Positions 4,919-13,228 of a DNA stretch of 56,556 bases are shown here, in pieces. Position 1 is the first letter of the stretch; each line of letters starts with the position of its first letter. The notes below the pieces were generated by a model. That model was not told where the DNA came from. It was given only the letters and a program-made list of their open reading frames with translations, and made no database searches. A program made the position numbers and the translations under genes. The stretch is taken from NCBI GenBank assembly GCA_020851975.1, contig JADZBS010000112.1, positions 1-56,556 of the forward strand. The letters run 5' to 3'. The DNA comes from Gammaproteobacteria bacterium (GTDB lineage: Bacteria; Pseudomonadota; Gammaproteobacteria; Steroidobacterales; GCA-2729495).

Positions 4919-6100
4919 CTATTTCATCTCCCGCCCGATGCGCTGGTACGCCTCGCGGAAGCTGATGCCTTCCTCCAGGACGAGGCGGTTGGCGCGGCCG
5001 GCGGCGTAGATGCCGGCGTCGAGCCGGATGTTTTCCGGGCGGAATTCAATGCCGCCCAGCAGGTGGGCCATGACGGCGCAGCTCTCGGCGGTGACGTCGA
5101 TGGCACGGAACAGCGGGCCCTTCATGCGCTGCAGGTCGCGCTGGTAGCCGGAGGGCAGCTTGGCGGGCAGCGCCAGGATCTCGGCCAGCGCGCCCTGCAG
5201 CGTCGCCGTGGCGCCGCGCACCAGCTCGAGGACGTCGGGGTTGCGCTTCTGCGGCATGATCGAGGAGCCCGTGGTCATGCTGGCTGGCAGGCGCACGAAG
5301 GCGAACTCCTGCGTATAGAAGAGGAGCAGGTCGGCGGCGAGCCGGCCGAGGTCCTGCATCAGCAGGCACAGTTCGAACACCAGCGTCGCCTCGGCCTTGC
5401 CGCGCGAGATCTGCACCGCGGTCACCGGCTCGTGCACGGCGTCGAAGCCGAGCAGCCGGCGCGTGGACTCGCGGTCGATGGGCAGGCCGGGCACGCCGTA
5501 GCCGGCTGCGCTGCCGAGCGGGTTGCGGCTGAGGCGCCGGCGCGTGGCGCCGATGCCCTCGGCATCGTCGCGGATCTCGGCGGCGAAGCCGCCCGCCCAC
5601 AGCGGCACCGAACTGGGCATGGCCTGCTGCATGTGGGTGTAGCCGGGCAGCGCGGTGTCGGCCTCGCGGGTGCCGAGCGCGGTGAGCGCGTCGGCCACCC
5701 CGAGGGCGGCCCGCTGCAGGTCGCCGGCGGCGTCGAGCAGGTACAGGCGCAACGCGGTGAGCAGCTGGTCGTTGCGCGAGCGGCCGAGGTGCACGCGCCG
5801 GCCCGCTTCGCCGATCCGCTCGGTGAGGCGCCGTTCGAGCGCCGTGTGGGCGTCCTCGTCGTCGAGGCCGATGCGCCATTCGCCGGCGGCGTGGGCGACG
5901 GCGAGCGCCTCGAGGCCGGTGCAGATGGCGTCGAAGTCCTGGTCCGTCAGCAGCTTCTGCTGGTGGAGCATGGTGGCGTGCGCGATCGAGCCGCGCACGT
6001 CGTAGGGCACGAGCCGCGCGTCGAGGGCGTGGTCCTCGCCTGCCGTGTAGCGCAGCACCCGTGCGTCGAGGGCGTCGCCTTTGTCCCAGAGTCGGGTCAT
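4919..6100 (-). CDS. argH: argininosuccinate lyase, short form
   Basis: Splits argininosuccinate into arginine and fumarate, the last step of arginine synthesis. The fumarate lyase signature GSSIMPQKRNP is at residues 278-288, with HLGRSRNDQ near 104-112 and PGYTHMQQA near 152-160. The 393-residue protein stops right after FREAYQRIGREMK. As I recall, ArgH of E. coli is about 457 residues and of Xanthomonas about 430, so the C-terminal subdomain is largely missing. The TAG stop is unambiguous and only 59 bp separate it from lptM, so this looks like a natural short form or an old truncation. The start at 6100 has GGAG 11 nt upstream. It is the last arginine gene of the run, 65 bp after argB. 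Confidence 0.93.
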   Translation of the reverse strand: MTRLWDKGDALDARVLRYTAGEDHALDARLVPYDVRGSIAHATMLHQQKLLTDQDFDAICTGLEALAVAHAAGEWRIGLDDEDAHTALERRLTERIGEAGRRVHLGRSRNDQLLTALRLYLLDAAGDLQRAALGVADALTALGTREADTALPGYTHMQQAMPSSVPLWAGGFAAEIRDDAEGIGATRRRLSRNPLGSAAGYGVPGLPIDRESTRRLLGFDAVHEPVTAVQISRGKAEATLVFELCLLMQDLGRLAADLLLFYTQEFAFVRLPASMTTGSSIMPQKRNPDVLELVRGATATLQGALAEILALPAKLPSGYQRDLQRMKGPLFRAIDVTAESCAVMAHLLGGIEFRPENIRLDAGIYAAGRANRLVLEEGISFREAYQRIGREMK

Positions 6101-6165: not shown

Positions 6166-7101
6166 TCAGGTCGCCGGGGACTTCTCCTCGCTGGAGAGGG
6201 TGTTGATGTTCTCGACCACGAGCGTGCCCGTGCCTTCGTTGGTGAAGATCTCGAGCAGCAGGCTGTCGGGCACCTTGTAGGAAATCACGTGCCCCCGCGA
6301 CACGCCGCCGCGGATCGCCGCCTCGATGGCGCGGGCCTTGGGCAGCATGCCGTCGGCGAGCGCGCCGGCCTGCTCGAGCCGCTTCAGGCCGGCCAGGTCC
6401 ACGTACGAGATCAGCGAAGCCGGGTTGTGGCGATCCTCGAGGATGCCCGGCGCCCCGGTGGTGAGCACGAGCTTCGCGGCGCCGAGTTCGGCGGCCAGTG
6501 CCGCGGCCACCGTGTCGGCGTTGATGTTGAGCAGCGTGCCGGCGGCGTCGGCGGAGAGCGGGCTCACCACCGGCAGGAGGCCGTTCTCGAGCTGCGTGGC
6601 GAGCACGCTGGCGTCGATCTGCTCGATGTCGCCGACGAAGCCGTAGTCGACCGGCTGCGTCTGGCCGGCGATGCGCACCGGGGCGCGCCTGCGGGCGCGC
6701 ACCAGGCCGGCATCGACGCCGGAAATACCGATCGCCGGCAGCTCGAGCTGCCGGCAGGCGGCGACGATCTGGGTGTTGATCTGGCCGTTGAGGACCATGG
6801 TCGCCACGGCCAGCGTGCGCTCGTCGGTGACGCGACGGCCCTCGACCATGCGGGTCTCCACGCCCAGCGACTCGGCGAGCTGCGTGTTCTGCGGCCCCCC
6901 GCCGTGGACCAGCACGGTGCGGATGCCGACCTGGTGCAGGATCGCCACTTGCTCGATCAGCGCGCGCGTGCTCGCGGGATCGGCGAACACCTCGCCGCCC
7001 GCCTTGATGACGAAGGTCTTGCGCCGGTACAGCCGCACGTAGGGCGCTGCGTGGCGCAGGGCGGCGACGACGATGTCCCTGTTGGATGGATTCTGCGACA
7101 T
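6166..7101 (-). CDS. argB: N-acyl (acetyl/succinyl) glutamate kinase
   Basis: 311 residues of the amino acid kinase fold; phosphorylates the gamma-carboxylate of an N-acylglutamate. Visible motifs are FVIKAGGE near residue 30 (catalytic Lys), VHGGGPQN, GISGVDAGLV, the NINADTVAAALA nucleotide and substrate stretch, and the C-terminal LLLEIFTNEGTGTL. An N-terminal helix before the kinase core is like that of arginine-inhibited hexameric enzymes, so feedback control is possible. There is no GNAT domain, unlike the bifunctional synthase-kinase of Xanthomonas, so this protein cannot supply the missing acylglutamate synthase. The ATG at 7101 lies 5 bp after the carbamoyltransferase stop. Given that neighbour, the substrate may be succinylglutamate. 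Confidence 0.92.
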   Translation of the reverse strand: MSQNPSNRDIVVAALRHAAPYVRLYRRKTFVIKAGGEVFADPASTRALIEQVAILHQVGIRTVLVHGGGPQNTQLAESLGVETRMVEGRRVTDERTLAVATMVLNGQINTQIVAACRQLELPAIGISGVDAGLVRARRRAPVRIAGQTQPVDYGFVGDIEQIDASVLATQLENGLLPVVSPLSADAAGTLLNINADTVAAALAAELGAAKLVLTTGAPGILEDRHNPASLISYVDLAGLKRLEQAGALADGMLPKARAIEAAIRGGVSRGHVISYKVPDSLLLEIFTNEGTGTLVVENINTLSSEEKSPAT

Positions 7102-7106
7102 GGTGT

Positions 7107-8120
7107 TCAGGCTCCCGGTCCCATCATCTGGTAGAGCACGGCCATCTGGCCCCACATGCGGTTCTCGGCCTCGTGGATGACGACGCTGCGCGTGCCGTCG
7201 AGCACGCGGTCGGTGACGGCCACGCCGCGGCGCACCGGCAGGCAGTGCATGAAGCGGCAGTCCGGCCGCGTGGTCGCGAACCACGGGTCGTCGACGCGCC
7301 AGTCCTGCAGTTCCTCGCGCAGCTTCGCATCCGCGACGCGATCACCGTAGTGGCGCGTGGAGGACCACTCCTTGGCGTAGATCACGTGCGCGCCTTCGAG
7401 TGCCTCGCGCCGGTCATTGGTCTCGCGCAGCGAGCCGCCCGAGAGATCGGCGGCGCGGCGCGCCTTGTCCATGACCTGCGGGGGCAGCTCGAAGCCGTCC
7501 GGGCGCACCACGGTGACGTCCATGCCGCGCATCGCCGCCATGTGCAGCGTGGCCGAGGGCACGGCGAGCGGCAGCGCCTTCGGGTGCCAGGCCCAGGAGA
7601 GCACGAACTTGCCGCCGTGGCGCGGAATGGCGAGCTCGTCCATGGTCTTCCAGTCGGCGAGGCTCTGGCAGGGGTGCTGGATCGCCGACTCCATGTTGAT
7701 GAGCGGCTTCTTCACCAGCGCGCGCATGGCCTTGTATTCCTTGTCGGCGAGATCGTCGGCGAGGCTCGTGCGATTGGCGAACACGCGGATGCCGACCGCA
7801 TCGCCGTAGGAGGCGATCACCGGCACGCCCTCGCGCATGTGTTCGGCGGCCGCCCCGTCCATGACGATGCCGGAGCGCGTCTCCAGGCCGTGGATCGACA
7901 TCTCCGGCGAGAACACGAAGGAGCCGCCGCCGAGCCGCACCATGGCGGCCTGGAAGGAGGACAGCGTGCGCAGCGACGGCGACAGGAACAGCAGCGCCAG
8001 CACCCTGCCGGCGAGCGCCTGCGGCTCGGGGTGCCGTTGCAGGCGCGTGGCGAGCGCGAGCAGGGCCTCGACCTCCTCGATGCGGAAGTCGGCGAGATCG
8101 TTGAATTCCTTCAGTGCCAT
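7107..8120 (-). CDS. N-acyl-ornithine carbamoyltransferase, probably succinyl-ornithine type
   Basis: 337 residues of the transcarbamylase family, of the branch acting on N-acylated ornithine rather than ornithine. The carbamoyl phosphate loop is SLRTL (49-53), where the usual second Arg is replaced by Leu. HPCQ and HCLPVRR are present. The stretch LETRSGIVMDGAAAEH (79-94) closely resembles the Bacteroides succinyl-ornithine enzyme. Residue 92, Glu in the Xanthomonas acetyl enzyme and Pro (residue 90) in the Bacteroides succinyl enzyme, is Ala here. As I recall, E92A turns the Xanthomonas enzyme into a succinyl-ornithine transcarbamylase. The neighbouring Trp77 is His. It makes N-acylcitrulline, so a deacylase must exist elsewhere. 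It lies between argD (17 bp) and argB (5 bp). Confidence 0.9.
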   Translation of the reverse strand: MALKEFNDLADFRIEEVEALLALATRLQRHPEPQALAGRVLALLFLSPSLRTLSSFQAAMVRLGGGSFVFSPEMSIHGLETRSGIVMDGAAAEHMREGVPVIASYGDAVGIRVFANRTSLADDLADKEYKAMRALVKKPLINMESAIQHPCQSLADWKTMDELAIPRHGGKFVLSWAWHPKALPLAVPSATLHMAAMRGMDVTVVRPDGFELPPQVMDKARRAADLSGGSLRETNDRREALEGAHVIYAKEWSSTRHYGDRVADAKLREELQDWRVDDPWFATTRPDCRFMHCLPVRRGVAVTDRVLDGTRSVVIHEAENRMWGQMAVLYQMMGPGA

Positions 8121-8137: not shown

Positions 8138-9301
8138 TCAGCGAATGTCGGCGAGCGCGTTCAGCAGCTCGTGTACGTGGTGGCGTTCGAGCACCAGGGG
8201 CGGCAGCAGGCGCATCACCTGCGGATCGGCGCTGGTACCGACCAGGATCCCGCGCTTCAGCAGTTCCTGCAGCATCTCGCGGGCCGGCCGCCGGCAGCGC
8301 AGGCCGAGCAGGAAGCCCTTGCCCTGCACGGCCTCGACCGGCCCGAGCGGCATGGCTTCGATGATCTCCTGCGACAGGGCGCGCACGTTGTCGATGAGCC
8401 GGTCGCGGCCGATGACCTCGATCACCGTGGACATGAGCGCACTGGCGAGCGGCCCGCCGCCGAAGGTGGTGCCGAGGTCACCGGGCTTCAGGCCGGCGGC
8501 GATGCGGTCGGTGACCAGCAGCGCGCTGCACGGGAAGCCGGCGCCGAGCGCCTTGGCGACCGTGAGCATGTCGGGCGTGACGCCGGCGAGTTCGATGGCG
8601 AAGGGCGCGCCGCAGCGGCCCATGCCGCTCTGGATCTCGTCGGCGATGAGCAGTGCCCCGGCCTGTTCGCAGGCGGCGGCCACCGCCTGCACGAAGGCCG
8701 GATCGAGGTCGAAGGCGCCGGCCTGGCCCTGCACCGGCTCGAGGATCACGCCAGCCACGGTGTCGTCGATGAGCCGGCCGGCGGCGGCGATGTCGTTGCG
8801 CGGGATGAATCCGACGTCGAAGGGCGTGCGCGGGAAGCCGTACCACTTGCCCACGGCCGACCAGGTGACGGCTGCCGCAGCCGCGGTGCGGCCGTGGAAG
8901 CCGTGCTCGATGGCGAGGATGCGCCCGCGGCCGGTGACGCGGCAGGCGAGGCGCAGCGCGTTCTCGTTCGCCTCCGCGCCGCTGTTGCCGAAGAACACGT
9001 GGCCGAGGCCGGCCGGGGCGAACGCCGCCAGCCGGCGCGCGGCCTCCTCGCGCACCTCGAGCGCCACCGCGTTGCTCTGGAAGAAGAGCCGGCGGCCCTG
9101 TGTCTCCAGGGCGCGCACGATGTCCGGGTGGGCGTAGCCGAGACCGGCCACGGCGTGGCCGCCGTAGAAGTCGATGATGCGCCGGCCTTCGCCGTGGAGG
9201 TACACGCCCTCGGCCGACTCGGGTCGGAACGGCAGGTAGGGGTAGACGTCGAGCAGGTGGCTCGCTGCGGGCAGGCCGGCGCTCCGGGGTGTGGCGTTCA
9301 T
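8138..9301 (-). CDS. argD: acyl-ornithine aminotransferase
   Basis: 387 residues, class III PLP aminotransferase. Lys250 in TVAKALGAGFP is the Schiff-base lysine, GNSGAEANE at 105-113 binds the cofactor phosphate, and IADEIQSGMGR near 219 carries the PLP-ring aspartate. It converts N-acylglutamate semialdehyde to N-acylornithine. Its position, 10 bp after argC and 17 bp before the acylornithine carbamoyltransferase, fixes the pathway role. ArgD enzymes generally accept both acetyl- and succinyl-ornithine, so it fits either version of the pathway. Confidence 0.92.
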   Translation of the reverse strand: MNATPRSAGLPAASHLLDVYPYLPFRPESAEGVYLHGEGRRIIDFYGGHAVAGLGYAHPDIVRALETQGRRLFFQSNAVALEVREEAARRLAAFAPAGLGHVFFGNSGAEANENALRLACRVTGRGRILAIEHGFHGRTAAAAAVTWSAVGKWYGFPRTPFDVGFIPRNDIAAAGRLIDDTVAGVILEPVQGQAGAFDLDPAFVQAVAAACEQAGALLIADEIQSGMGRCGAPFAIELAGVTPDMLTVAKALGAGFPCSALLVTDRIAAGLKPGDLGTTFGGGPLASALMSTVIEVIGRDRLIDNVRALSQEIIEAMPLGPVEAVQGKGFLLGLRCRRPAREMLQELLKRGILVGTSADPQVMRLLPPLVLERHHVHELLNALADIR

Positions 9302-9311
9302 CGGTGCGTCC

Positions 9312-10382
9312 TCACGCCCAGCCCAGGGCCGGCGCGGTGAGGCCGGTGTCCTCGGCCAGGCCGAGCTTGCGGTTCAGCCACTGGATTGCGCCGCCCGCGG
9401 CGCCCTTGACGAGGTTGTCCTCGACCACCATCACGGCGACGCTGCCGGCGTCCACGCTCACGCCGATCTGGGCGTAGTTGCTGCCGACGATGTCCTTCAC
9501 GCGCGGCATGCCGTCGACGACGCTGACGAACCGGGCGCCGGCATAGAAAGTGCGCAGTGCCTCGCGCAGGGCCTCGGCGCCGGCCGGTTCGCGCAGCGTG
9601 GCCTGCACGGTCATGTGGATGCCGCGCGCGAACGGCCCGGAGTGCGGCACGAAGTGCAGCCGCGGCCGCTGCCCGGTCAGTTGCTCGCACAGGCCGGCCA
9701 CCTCCGGCGCGTGGCGGTGGGCCAGCGGCTGGTAGGCAAAAAGGTTGGCGTGCCGTTCCGGATGGTGCGTGGTGGCGATCGGCGAGCGGCCGGCGCCCGT
9801 GCTGCCGGTGATGCCGGTCGCGAAGAAATCCGGGCCGGCGATCCCGAGTTTCAGCAGCGGCACGGCGGCGAGCAGCATCGCGGTGGCGAAGCAGCCGGGG
9901 TGGGCGATGTGCGGCCGGTCGGTGTGCGCCAGGTGCTCGGGCACGGCGCAGGCGAACGCTTCGAGCAACTGCGGCGCTCCGTGCGGGTGCTTGTACACCG
10001 CCTCGTAGGCGCCGGCGCTCGCGAAGCGGAAGTCCGCCGAGACGTCGACCACGGTGAGCGCCGTGCCGCGTTCGCGGGCCCAGCCGATGAAGCCGGCGAG
10101 GAGTGGTGCGCTCGCTCCGTGCGGGGCGGCGGAGAGTAGCGCGAGCCGCCCCGTGCCGAAGTGTTCGAGGATCGCCTCGCGCGGCTGGAACTTCAGGTCG
10201 CCCAGGCCCGCGCGCAGGTGCGGGAAGGCGCCGACCACGTTCGCGCCGGCCTGGCTCTCCGACATCACGCCGGCCAGCGTGAGCCCGGGATGGCCGAGCA
10301 CCAGGCGCAGCAGTTCACCGGCGACGTAGCCGCTGCCGCCGAGGACGACGGTGGGCACGGCGTTGACGGTGGCGGCGCTCAT
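9312..10382 (-). CDS. argC: N-acyl-gamma-glutamyl-phosphate reductase
   Basis: 356 residues. NADP-binding LGGSGYVAGELLRL at 14-27 and the catalytic Cys164 in HPGCFAT identify ArgC, which reduces the acyl-phosphate made by ArgB to the semialdehyde used by ArgD. SHDxH-type residues of the active site appear as THHPERHAN. The ATG at 10382 overlaps the stop of the P-loop gene in the four bases ATGA, so translation is coupled. Confidence 0.94.
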   Translation of the reverse strand: MSAATVNAVPTVVLGGSGYVAGELLRLVLGHPGLTLAGVMSESQAGANVVGAFPHLRAGLGDLKFQPREAILEHFGTGRLALLSAAPHGASAPLLAGFIGWARERGTALTVVDVSADFRFASAGAYEAVYKHPHGAPQLLEAFACAVPEHLAHTDRPHIAHPGCFATAMLLAAVPLLKLGIAGPDFFATGITGSTGAGRSPIATTHHPERHANLFAYQPLAHRHAPEVAGLCEQLTGQRPRLHFVPHSGPFARGIHMTVQATLREPAGAEALREALRTFYAGARFVSVVDGMPRVKDIVGSNYAQIGVSVDAGSVAVMVVEDNLVKGAAGGAIQWLNRKLGLAEDTGLTAPALGWA

Positions 10383-11437
10383 GCGTTTACCGGGAAGCCG
10401 AGCGTACGCGCCACGGCGTTGCCGAGTTCGACCGCGTCCGTCACCGCATTGATGGCCGGCACCCCGGTGCGCTCGCGGATGATGTCGCGGCCGACCTGGT
10501 TGTCGGTCGAGGGTCCGGTGACGATCTTCGGGTCGATGTCGAACTCGCGGCGCAGCAGCTCGACGCCACCCCAGGCCGCGACCGGGTCGTTGGCCGAAAG
10601 CACCACGCAGCTCAGCGCGGCACGGATGTCGGGCTGGCGCAGGATCGCCTCCACGCCATAGGCGCCGAGGATGCCGTCGCCGAGCTCGAAGACGATCACG
10701 TCGGGCCGGTTGGCGGCGAGCCGCGTGAGCATGGTCCGCGTCACCGCCGGGCCGGTCTTCGCCGTGGTGCAGACCACGCCGAAGTCCGTGAAGATCATGG
10801 TCTGGCGCGCGCCGGCGTCCTCCATGGCGAGGATGTCCCGGCGCAGCGCCACGCCGGTCGACTTGAAGGCGTCGACGGTGAAGCCGAGATGGCGCAGGCG
10901 GCTGACGATGGCGCAGGCCGCCGCCGTCTTGCCGGCGTTCATGCAGGTGCCGGCGAGCGCGACCACCGGCACACCCTGGGTGTCGAGCGCTGCGGCGAAG
11001 TCGAGCCGCTCGGCGCCGGCACGGGCCGGCACGCCGATGCGTTCACCGAGGTAGGGGAAGTCGAGCACGGCGCCGAGCACGCGCGCCTCGAACGGCGGGC
11101 CGAAGCTCGCGTTGATCGAGTCGCACACGCCGATCACGCCGCCCATGTTGAGGACCTGCAGCACGTCGCCCGGCACGACCTGCTCCGGCAGGTGGCCGGA
11201 GTAGCCGAACAGGGCCTTGCGATGGCCGAGCGCGCCGACGATGACGTCGCCGCGCTTGACCTGTGCCTGCCGGCCGCTGGTGAGCTCGAGCGTGTTGTAG
11301 GTGCCCGTGTTGTTGAGGATCTCCACGGCGATCAGCACCCCTTCCTCGCAGGGGATGTCGGCGCCGACCCGCAGCTCGCGCGAGAGCTGCGCGTGCTGGG
11401 CCACCGAGCCGATCTTGTCGGCGATGACGGTCTTCAC
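10379..11437 (-). CDS. unassigned P-loop protein embedded in the arginine operon
   Basis: 352 residues from a GTG start at 11437 that overlaps the argG stop (GTGA); its own stop overlaps the argC start (ATGA). Both junctions imply translational coupling and a job in arginine synthesis. The N-terminal 125 residues look beta-rich (VIVGALGHRKALFGYSGH, then NMGGVIGVCDS). After a linker comes a Walker A loop GTCMNAGKT at 163-171 and a Walker B-like strand DVIVFELGDG at 246-255. The C-terminal half loosely resembles DUF1611/DgcN, MobB and BioD-type P-loop folds; I cannot place it firmly. As I recall, DgcN, a DUF1611 protein, N-acetylates D-glutamate. An N-acyltransferase role acting on L-glutamate is therefore a tempting inference, because no argA or argJ is in the window. 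A regulatory or ligase role is equally open. Confidence 0.7.
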   Translation of the reverse strand: MKTVIADKIGSVAQHAQLSRELRVGADIPCEEGVLIAVEILNNTGTYNTLELTSGRQAQVKRGDVIVGALGHRKALFGYSGHLPEQVVPGDVLQVLNMGGVIGVCDSINASFGPPFEARVLGAVLDFPYLGERIGVPARAGAERLDFAAALDTQGVPVVALAGTCMNAGKTAAACAIVSRLRHLGFTVDAFKSTGVALRRDILAMEDAGARQTMIFTDFGVVCTTAKTGPAVTRTMLTRLAANRPDVIVFELGDGILGAYGVEAILRQPDIRAALSCVVLSANDPVAAWGGVELLRREFDIDPKIVTGPSTDNQVGRDIIRERTGVPAINAVTDAVELGNAVARTLGFPVNA

Positions 11438-12660
11438 GACGCGCTGCCCTTGCCGGCGGCCCGCGTCTGCAGGATGCCGGGCCGCGACAGGATGCGCGAG
11501 TAGCCGAGCGCGTCGCCCGGGGTCCATTCGCCCGCCTTCTCGCCGTACACGCCGCGGGTGGCGGCCATCAGCGAGTGCGCCGAGACCACGCCCTCGACGA
11601 ACAGGTTGCCCGGCCGCAGCATCACCCGCACCTCGCCGGTGACGCGCTGCTGCGAGGAGGTGAGCAGCGCCTCGATGTCGCGGCACACCGGGTCGAGCTG
11701 CTTGCCCTCGTGGATGAAATCGCCGTACTGGGCAGCCACCTGGTCCTTGATGCGCTGCTGCGGGCCGGAGAGCACGAGCTTCTCCAGTTCCCGGTGGGCG
11801 ACGAGCAGCACCTCGGCCGCGGGCGCTTCGAACGCAACCCGGCCCTTGGTGCCGAGCACGGTGTCGCCGAGATGGACGCCACGGCCGATGGCGTAGGGGC
11901 CGGCGAGCTTCTCCAGCGCCTCGATCAGGCGCACCGGGTCCATCGGCTCGCCGTCGATCGCGGTCGGCACGCCCTGCGTGAAGGCGATCGTGTGGCGGCT
12001 GGCCGGCAGGTTCTTCTCGAAGGCGTTGGCCGAGAGCACCCAGGCGCTCTCCGGGATGGATTCCTTCGAGTCGAGCGTCTCGCGCCCGCCGATGGTCACG
12101 CCCCAGAGGCCGCGGTTGATGGAATAGGCCGAGCCGCGCACCGGCACCGGGAAGCCACGCTCCTCGAGGTACTTCTGCTGCTCGGTGCGCACGAAGGCCT
12201 GGTCGCGCACCGGCGCGAGCACTTCGAGTCCCGGCGCGAGCGTGCGCAGTGCCACTTCGAAGCGCACCTGGTCGTTGCCGGCCGCCGTGCAGCCGTGGGC
12301 CACGGTGGCGCTGCCGCGGGCGCGGGCGAGCTCGGCGAGGAGCGTTGCCTGGATGCCGCGTTCGGCGCCGACGCAGAGCGGATAGAGGTGGCCGCGACGC
12401 ACGTTGCCGAACACGAGGTACTTCAGGACCCGGTCGAAGAACACCTGGCGGGCCTCGACCAGGATGTGTTCCTGGGCGCCGAGCGCCTTCGCCCGCTGCT
12501 CGAGGTCGCGGGCGGCTGCCGCGTCGATGCCGCCGGTGTCGATCGTCACGGTGACGACCGGGCGGCCGTAATGCTCCTTCATCCACGGGACGCAGAACGA
12601 GGTGTCGAGTCCACCGGAGAAGCCGAGGACGATGGGGGATGTGCTGGCCTGGGTCGTCAT
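11434..12660 (-). CDS. argG: argininosuccinate synthase
   Basis: 408 residues. The PP-loop FSGGLDTSF at 14-22 binds ATP, HGCTAAGNDQVRFE holds citrulline/aspartate contacts, and SINRGLWG, GVPTAIDGEPM and FIHEGKQLDP are typical of the family. It joins citrulline to aspartate with ATP to give argininosuccinate, the substrate of ArgH. Because the neighbouring carbamoyltransferase makes acylcitrulline, ArgG should act after a deacylase that is not encoded here. It starts 40 bp after argR and overlaps the unknown P-loop gene by 4 nt. Confidence 0.95.
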   Translation of the reverse strand: MTTQASTSPIVLGFSGGLDTSFCVPWMKEHYGRPVVTVTIDTGGIDAAAARDLEQRAKALGAQEHILVEARQVFFDRVLKYLVFGNVRRGHLYPLCVGAERGIQATLLAELARARGSATVAHGCTAAGNDQVRFEVALRTLAPGLEVLAPVRDQAFVRTEQQKYLEERGFPVPVRGSAYSINRGLWGVTIGGRETLDSKESIPESAWVLSANAFEKNLPASRHTIAFTQGVPTAIDGEPMDPVRLIEALEKLAGPYAIGRGVHLGDTVLGTKGRVAFEAPAAEVLLVAHRELEKLVLSGPQQRIKDQVAAQYGDFIHEGKQLDPVCRDIEALLTSSQQRVTGEVRVMLRPGNLFVEGVVSAHSLMAATRGVYGEKAGEWTPGDALGYSRILSRPGILQTRAAGKGSAS

Positions 12661-12700: not shown

Positions 12701-13165
12701 TCAGGCCCCTTCGCGGTTCAACAGGGCGCGCAGCCGCACCAGCAGCCGGCGCTGGTCGCCACCCCCGCGGGTGGCGACGAAGATGGTGTCGTCGCCGGAC
12801 ACGGTGCCGACGATCTCGCCCCAGCCGCTGCGGTCGAGGTACAGCGCCACGCGCTGGGCCGCGCCCTCCACGGTTTTCACCACCGTGAGGTTGCCACCGG
12901 CGGTGCGCACGTCGCGCAGCAGTTCGGCCACCACGGCGGCGTCGCGGTCGGCCTCCGGGTCCGGCTGCTCGAGCGGCTGGTAGCCGGTGTCGAGCTTGGT
13001 GATGCCGAGCTGCTGCAGGTCCCGGCTCACGCTCGACTGCGTCACGCGGATGCCGCGCTCCCTGAGCAGCCGCACCAGCTCGCTCTGGCGCGCGACCCGG
13101 CGGTTGCGCAGGATCGTGAGGATCGCCTTCTGGCGCTTCTCCATCGATTCGGTGGCGACAGGCAT
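12701..13165 (-). CDS. argR: arginine repressor
   Basis: 154 residues, the usual ArgR size. The winged-helix N-terminus has KRQKAILTILRNRRVARQSE and GIRVTQSSVSRDLQQLGI, the ArgR DNA-recognition helix. The C-terminal oligomerisation and arginine-binding domain includes VVKTVEGAAQRVALYLD and GTVSGDDTIFVATRG (GT-x-x-GDDT-I motif). It represses arginine genes when arginine is bound. The ATG at 13165 is chosen because a promoter lies at 13201-13228, inside the longer in-frame reading. It is the first gene of the arg run and its promoter carries repeated candidate operators, so self-control and control of the run are likely. Confidence 0.93.
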   Translation of the reverse strand: MPVATESMEKRQKAILTILRNRRVARQSELVRLLRERGIRVTQSSVSRDLQQLGITKLDTGYQPLEQPDPEADRDAAVVAELLRDVRTAGGNLTVVKTVEGAAQRVALYLDRSGWGEIVGTVSGDDTIFVATRGGGDQRRLLVRLRALLNREGA

Positions 13166-13174
13166 GCCCGGCTC

Positions 13175-13228
13175 ATGCGCATAAGCGAAAATGGATGCGC
13201 ATAATATGCATTTGCGTCCGAAAGTCAA
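13175..13228 (-). promoter_or_regulatory. argR promoter with paired operator repeats
   Basis: On the minus strand, TTGACT (13228-13223) and TATTAT (13206-13201) are separated by 16 bp, a good sigma-70 promoter. The plus-strand decamer ATGCGCATAA occurs twice, at 13175-13184 and 13195-13204, exactly 20 bp apart (two helical turns), and one copy overlaps the -10. This matches the tandem-box layout of ArgR operators, though the sequence differs from the E. coli ARG box. Confidence 0.6.

Follow-up and report, generated by a model that had tools for sequence, protein, structure and literature searches.

The window analysed here, the 56,556 nucleotides of contig JADZBS010000112.1 from a Gammaproteobacteria bacterium of the Steroidobacterales (assembly GCA_020851975.1; genome G000), carries a run of arginine genes, all on the minus strand, in the order argR-argG-PL-argC-argD-argF'-argB-argH. 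The subject of this analysis is PL, our working name for the gene at 11437..10379, which is a real open reading frame with a GTG start at 11437 and a stop codon at 10381-10379. Gaps of 40, 10, 17, 5 and 65 nucleotides separate argR from argG, argC from argD, argD from argF', argF' from argB, and argB from argH, respectively, and the only overlaps between genes of the run are those of PL with argG (GTGA) and with argC (ATGA). Thus, the original prediction, made from the sequence without database searches, was exact in placing these two overlaps and right in calling them the tightest couplings of the run. It had also said that the run is without genes for acylglutamate synthesis (argA or argJ) and deacylation, and none is present within the run. 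Its observation on PL is confirmed and its interpretation of PL as the missing first enzyme is partly supported: we think, with slightly better than even confidence, that PL is a non-GNAT glutamate N-acyltransferase, probably an N-succinylglutamate synthase, that heads a succinylated arginine pathway.

Relatives of PL were searched for in contigs representing one genome per species. A relative is encoded in 458 stretches, which puts the finding far beyond chance, and the best 80 of them were kept as loci. PL lies directly upstream of argC in all 80 of these, and argG comes directly before PL in 79, the one without argG there being L040. The complete eight-gene order is found in 63 of the 80 loci. 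The tight coupling of argG, PL and argC is not universal: counted mechanically, 33 of 79 loci have an argG stop that abuts or overlaps the start of PL (one of these values, -1080, comes from an error of measurement), and in 68 of 80 the stop of PL is reached or overlapped by the first in-frame start of argC. Other families have the operon permuted to argD-F'-B-H-G-PL-C (L134, L135 and L137 in genomes G055, G273 and G120), with PL still between argG and argC, and argG-PL-argC is also found in L118 and, on a short contig, in G226. When the window's PL was aligned with the proteins of 66 of the 80 loci (alignment A1), the mean column identity over the 67 proteins was 76%. The Walker A loop that the original prediction had placed at residues 163-171 is there, and its core (G163, M166, G169, K170 and T171) is invariant in all 67.

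Library scans put PL above no Pfam or NCBIfam cut-off. Its best weak match was MobB (15.4 bits against a cut-off of 26.6 in Pfam and 15.9 against 76.2 in NCBIfam); no BioD model matched it in either library and PF01960, the ArgJ family, did not match it in the Pfam scan. No GNAT domain was matched by PL in the Pfam and NCBIfam scans or by its 67 relatives in the Pfam scan, and a PDB sequence search with PL as query gave nothing useful. A gene of this kind was named nowhere in the titles and beginnings of abstracts of the literature found; going by these searches alone, PL appears to be undescribed so far.

The genomes that carry PL lack recognisable ArgA and ArgJ. We searched 20 PL genomes and 258 genomes sampled evenly across the class, counting as ArgA a TIGR01890 match over the cut-off (203 bits) and as ArgJ a match to PF01960. 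Arginine-type PL is found in eight genomes of the class sample, two of which are shared with the set of 20 (G000, and G263, which appears to be G011), so that 26 different genomes were covered. Neither ArgJ nor ArgA over the cut-off was found in any of the 20; TIGR01890 matches argB in all of them, and its acetyltransferase half is without a match in 13. Across the class sample 194 of the 258 genomes have ArgJ and 174 have ArgA over the cut-off, and the eight PL genomes have neither. The best E values for the ArgA model in these eight, 1e-31 to 1e-47, are equivalent in the 20-genome search to less than 165 bits against the 203 required. The original prediction was to be given up if every genome with PL held a complete argA or argJ elsewhere; because both were found in 0 of 20 and 0 of 8 PL genomes, it stands on this point.

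An ArgJ or ArgA hidden elsewhere in the tested PL genomes was considered and rejected, as none was found over the criteria in the 26 genomes. An N-acetylglutamate synthase (NAGS) fused to ArgB or ArgH was also rejected: ArgB consists of the kinase only, and ArgH matches PRK12308, which we take to be a model of an ArgH-NAGS fusion, only to position 390 of 624. The ArgH of the window has 393 amino acids and aligns to TIGR00838 only up to position 388 of 455, the C-terminal ASL_C2 domain being essentially missing (E 0.15); the ArgH of the permuted operons has 453-460 amino acids.

The transcarbamylase of the operon bears on the question of which acyl group is used. The NCBIfam label for argF' is N-acetylornithine carbamoyltransferase. 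According to the available text of PMC4581275, the acetyl-type enzymes are marked by Glu92, Asn185 and Lys302 and the succinyl-type enzymes by A/S/P/V/Q, P and V/I/E at these positions. In Xanthomonas numbering the window's argF' has A, P and A at 92, 185 and 302, so that two of the three residues are of succinyl type and none is of acetyl type, and it has the combination, A/S/P/V/Q at 92 with Pro at 185, by which a succinylornithine transcarbamylase is recognised. Among the loci, all 73 matches that cover the position of E92 have Ala there, and of the 71 that cover the position of K302, 49 have Ala, 22 have Val and none has the acetyl-type Lys; the permuted operons L134, L135 and L137 have P/P/E, P/P/E and V/P/E. 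A knotted-type transcarbamylase over the cut-off is present in 11 of the 258 class genomes, namely all eight PL genomes and three without PL. In the eight, E92 is replaced by A, P or V, N185 by P, and K302 by A, V or E, so that two or three of the three residues are of succinyl type and none is of acetyl type. The three without PL, which belong to one family (G029, G166 and G262; L177-L179), have E/N/K and serve as an acetyl-type positive control. A twelfth genome, G155, has a transcarbamylase fragment at a contig end, below the cut-off, with A/P/A. In the arginine cluster of G166 there is a 421-amino-acid ArgB of PRK04531 type (870 bits) together with an M20-like gene; by analogy with the Xanthomonas literature, as far as PMC1865377 is available, this ArgB would be a NAGS-kinase. 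These residue types make a succinylated arginine pathway, of the kind described for Bacteroides, likely in the PL genomes. The original prediction had left the choice between N-acetyl and N-succinyl transfer, and the transcarbamylase residues favour succinyl over acetyl.

A succinylated pathway also needs the acyl group to be removed. Three of the 20 PL genomes (G000, G001 and G013) each have a single M20 match stronger than E 1e-20, which is DapE over its cut-off, and a candidate succinylcitrulline desuccinylase of Bacteroides is described as distantly DapE-like in the available part of PMC7311316. Since DapE is the sole strong M20 match in these genomes it may, by this analogy, carry out the deacylation, and the first step would then be the one left without a recognised enzyme.

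Evidence on which step PL belongs to comes from outside the class. In a phylum sample of 398 genomes, an arginine-type PL is present in a single genome from a different class, G530, where it lies in a cluster of argR-PL-argC-argB alone (L195 6089-9709). In two trees the G530 protein adjoins the PL of Povalibacter uvarum (support 96/94 and 85/91) and therefore this cluster was probably acquired laterally. Elsewhere G530 has an ordinary argG-argF-argH cluster (L245) whose ArgF is an ornithine transcarbamylase over the cut-off. PL thus goes with the steps starting from acylglutamate: it moves with the kinase and the reductase acting on N-acylglutamate and not with a transcarbamylase or a deacylase. 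An acylcitrulline-handling enzyme, which the original prediction had offered as an alternative, is weakened by this module, because the transcarbamylase of G530 is an ordinary ornithine enzyme.

Based on these findings we infer a pathway in which PL would acylate the alpha-amino group of L-glutamate, the group transferred being most likely the succinyl of succinyl-CoA (CoA, coenzyme A). The P-loop would hold the nucleotide part of CoA, or PL may use ATP, and the substrate would sit between the two domains of the protein. ArgB, ArgC, ArgD and the succinylornithine-type ArgF' would carry the N-acyl compound to N-acylcitrulline, from which a general desuccinylase such as DapE may free citrulline, and the freed citrulline would go to ArgG and ArgH.

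The predicted structure of PL (mean predicted local distance difference test score, pLDDT, 81.6) has a beta-rich N-terminal domain followed by a P-loop domain. The latter gives fold matches to the signal recognition particle (SRP) GTPases Ffh and FtsY, to BioD (dethiobiotin synthetase) and to HypB. In 16 of 67 members the N-terminal domain has a weak match to EF-G_D2 in Pfam; modelled alone (pLDDT 67) it had no significant fold match, the AgrE chains in that search being at E 0.8-1.7. DgcN, a member of DUF1611, is reportedly a D-glutamate N-acetyltransferase, and the original prediction had seen a loose likeness to this family in the C-terminal half of PL. PF07755 (DUF1611) matches 43 of 67 relatives at E<=10, with a best value of 3.2e-4 that is below the cut-off, and does not match the window's PL at E<=10. 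A comparison of profiles with hhalign gave E 4.1e-4 over 172 columns (probability 34.6%), and E 0.0079 over 58 columns (probability 5%) with the less diverse A1 profile. The other alignments covered 11 of the 14 DUF1611 loci considered (A2), 11 of 14 distant paralogues (A4) and hand-picked subsets (A5 and A8). In Pfam scans the DUF1611 N-terminal domain had no match in PL or its relatives, whose N-terminus is modelled as beta-rich. Membership of PL in DUF1611 was not accepted because a PF07755 search of the whole genome G000 did not report it, and the family check that had been proposed with DUF1611, MobB and BioD gave no score over a family cut-off. What is left of the likeness is a relation that is remote at best, and this kinship alone is insufficient to carry the acyltransferase claim. 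DgcN is discussed in PMC12363236 and PMC10845958, as far as their available text goes.

The observations gathered in this paragraph, and the GNAT matches described in the next, weigh against PL as the glutamate N-acyltransferase. The link of PL to DUF1611 is below every cut-off; MobB and BioD match PL about as well as DUF1611 does, and the three DUF1611 structures are absent among the 50 fold matches shown for PL. SIMIBI P-loop proteins are mostly NTPases, so that an acyltransferase role would be unusual. The K302 position of the transcarbamylase is Ala in the window and in many relatives, outside the listed succinyl set of V/I/E. A weak isolated match to the acetyltransferase half of TIGR01890 is present in seven of the 20 PL genomes. 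The eight PL genomes of the class sample are not independent, four being of the window's order and four of three other families, and the search for ArgJ and ArgA covered the 20 genomes and the class sample, to which G530 does not belong. Since G000 is 92% complete, the absences there alone are weak; G034, G263, G055 and G120, which are 96-100% complete, show the same absences. DapE as the desuccinylase is a guess, M20 being the only amidase family searched.

The main rival explanation, which we rate as rather unlikely, is that PL serves ArgB and ArgC as a regulatory or assembly NTPase, such as a chaperone or a sensor, and that an unrecognised GNAT elsewhere in the genome acylates glutamate, as is thought for BT3761 in Bacteroides. 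BT3761 is reportedly a GNAT. The SIMIBI relatives of PL, as its fold matches to SRP GTPases and HypB indicate, include regulatory and maturation NTPases, PL accompanies ArgB and ArgC in G530 too, and the proposed succinylglutamate synthase of Bacteroides is another protein in the available account (PMC7311316). GNAT matches were present in all eight genomes searched. The window's genome has nine; eight open reading frames were scanned and one, RimI, was over a named cut-off, and this frame and one other score 27-29 bits with the model of the CG3035 N-acetylglutamate synthase, whose cut-off is 280, so that an unrecognised GNAT synthase in this genome is possible. The window's own contig, however, is without a PF00583 match, and the 80 clusters have no internal gap large enough for a GNAT gene, the longest of 518 intervals between adjacent gene matches measuring 330 nucleotides. 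For the flanks we used a profile built from 30 GNAT-match segments, three of which were probably read from the wrong strand. With flanks of varying length, a GNAT-like frame was found within 2 kb of the cluster in six of the 80 loci and not in the other 74. It lies 221-312 nucleotides after argH in three close kin of the window (L004 16760-17293, L006 16715-17245 and L008 16675-17247), 1.4-1.8 kb beyond in L041 and L031, and upstream on the other strand in L062. The GNAT proteins of L004, L006 and L008 were found by similarity in none of the other 55 loci with room (58 in total), and a conserved GNAT beside the operon was rejected on the count of six in 80. The 13 PL genomes without a match to the acetyltransferase half of TIGR01890 also speak against this explanation, and a regulator need not track the ArgA- and ArgJ-less genomes so strictly. 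Because of the GNAT matches in the window's genome and near six of the 80 clusters, the main rival is still a GNAT synthase encoded elsewhere in the genome, with PL in a regulatory role.

It is quite improbable, in our estimate, that PL is an ArgJ-like recycling enzyme that takes the acyl group off N-acylcitrulline or N-acylornithine and passes it to glutamate. Such an enzyme would fill both missing steps with the one orphan gene of an operon in which two steps are without a gene, and DapE is the only strong M20 match left in three of 20 genomes; but DapE could plausibly remove succinyl, PL has no PF01960 match, and, because the transcarbamylase that accompanies PL in G530 is an ordinary ornithine enzyme, acylcitrulline is not the partner of PL there. 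More improbable still is an ATP-dependent, dethiobiotin synthetase-like ligase that would couple a free acid to glutamate or install a different protecting group. The BioD and CbiA/MobB likeness of the P-loop domain and the name dethiobiotin synthase given to one distant relative in a plasmid record point to it; the ArgF' residues do not decide between donors.

Compared with known systems, PL as a glutamate N-acyltransferase would catalyse the same pathway step as ArgA (the GNAT-type NAGS) and the Xanthomonas NAGS-kinase, but PL has no GNAT match and ArgA is not over the cut-off in the tested PL genomes. Like ArgJ it would supply N-acylglutamate in arginine operons; unlike ArgJ it is unmatched by PF01960, and the tested PL genomes are without ArgJ. 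With DgcN it shares a P-loop domain with GTxxxxGK followed by a TG motif and, going by the activity reported for DgcN, the proposed product class, N-acylglutamate; it differs in scoring below the PF07755 cut-off, in its beta-rich N-terminus without a DUF1611 N-terminal match and in its place in arginine operons. BioD, MobB and HypB have the same SIMIBI P-loop fold, whereas PL is below the cut-offs of these families, has the extra N-terminal domain and lies in an arginine operon. The succinylated pathway of Bacteroides (BT3761 and BT3549), as described in the available text of PMC7311316, has the same succinylornithine-type transcarbamylase residues. There the probable first enzyme is BT3761, the likely succinylglutamate synthase, which shares more than 50% identity with the N-acetylglutamate synthase Cabys_1732, whereas the operon here holds PL instead.

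The coordinates are collected in Table 1. The argR-like gene reaches the Pfam cut-offs and not that of NCBIfam.

Table 1. Features of the arginine run in the window, and loci of exporter-linked PL-like genes in other contigs
Feature	Position	Strand	Description and basis
argR-like repressor	12701..13228	-	Pfam Arg_repressor and Arg_repressor_C over cut-off; start may be 13144
argG	11434..12660	-	TIGR00032 over cut-off
PL start/argG stop overlap, GTGA	11434..11437	-	4 nucleotides, read in sequence
PL	10379..11437	-	352 amino acids; beta-rich N-terminal domain and SIMIBI-type P-loop domain; candidate glutamate N-acyl (succinyl) transferase
PL N-terminal beta-rich domain, about residues 1-125	11063..11437	-	Predicted model, pLDDT 57-87 by block of 10 residues
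PL P-loop domain, about residues 157-346, SIMIBI type	10400..10969	-	Predicted model; fold matches
PL Walker A, GTCMNAGKT, residues 163-171	10925..10951	-	Read in translation
argC start/PL stop overlap, ATGA	10379..10382	-	4 nucleotides, read in sequence
argC	9312..10382	-	TIGR01850 over cut-off
argD-like acylornithine aminotransferase	8138..9301	-	Aminotran_3 over cut-off; TIGR00707 312 bits, below cut-off of 410
argF', knotted-type transcarbamylase	7107..8120	-	NF003384 over cut-off; A92/P184/A301, not acetylornithine-type E, N, K
argB	6166..7101	-	TIGR00761 over cut-off; kinase domain only, no fused acetyltransferase domain
argH	4919..6100	-	TIGR00838 over cut-off; without acetyltransferase domain
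ABC-linked PL-like loci	L142 5212-8800; L145 8364-11745; L146 3602-7298; also L255, L256, L257

Outside the arginine clusters, distant PL-like proteins form two further groups, one linked to ABC exporters and one to M20 amidases; the genome searches scored 5-7 candidates per genome where there were many, so distant PL-like genes may be undercounted. Proteins of the ABC-linked group (about 28-33% identity), encoded on chromosomes and plasmids, usually have an ABC exporter for a neighbour, frequently with an alpha/beta hydrolase as well, the exceptions being the second copy in G265 (L141) and a Microvirga match. In the class sample 11 of the 12 genomes with this type also have ArgJ, and G175 does not. 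In the second group, G168 and G506 have a cassette of a PL-like gene, an M20 amidase and a flavin-reductase-like gene (L139 7399-10225 and L198 6133-8922). Their M20 proteins are 59% identical, that of G168 is glutamate-carboxypeptidase-like, below the cut-off, and the G168 cassette is near hypF and hypD. A Priestia megaterium plasmid (L258 3730-12418) combines a phosphoenolpyruvate mutase, two ATP-grasp enzymes, an ornithine carbamoyltransferase, an M20 amidase and a PL-like protein, and looks like a phosphonate natural-product cluster. G168 also has, at L200 7317-9532, a second transcarbamylase below the NF003384 cut-off with an M20-like gene and, by eye, a carbamate-kinase-like gene, perhaps a catabolic YgeW-like set. 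Two distant relatives are named 'DUF1611 domain-containing protein' in plasmid records.

In the tree the M20-linked group is the neighbour of the arginine group; support is 98/98 for the latter and 94/58 for the former, with long branches. These neighbours give hints, no more, of N-acyl protection and removal as a common theme. We would go further only tentatively, and with less than even confidence, to propose that PL is the founding member of a new family of acyltransferases, whose SIMIBI P-loop domain, fused to a beta-rich domain, would bind acyl-CoA and N-acylate glutamate, replacing ArgA and ArgJ in a succinylated pathway of Gammaproteobacteria. The M20-adjacent sister branch, in the phosphonate-type cluster and in the cassette with the glutamate-carboxypeptidase-like enzyme, might then represent protection and deprotection pairs of the same chemistry.

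The 26 PL genomes without ArgJ or ArgA over the cut-off, together with the 458 related stretches, suggest that there are many more such species, and one named candidate gene makes the gap testable in the culturable Povalibacter uvarum and Steroidobacter gossypii. If PL is the glutamate N-acyltransferase, a new fold would be added to the few known solutions for glutamate N-acylation, and the succinylated pathway, known from Bacteroidetes in the literature available in part, would be extended to Gammaproteobacteria. The automatic annotation of the transcarbamylase of PL genomes as acetylornithine-specific would be corrected, and a function would be given to a family with distant members that at present carry the names hypothetical or DUF1611.

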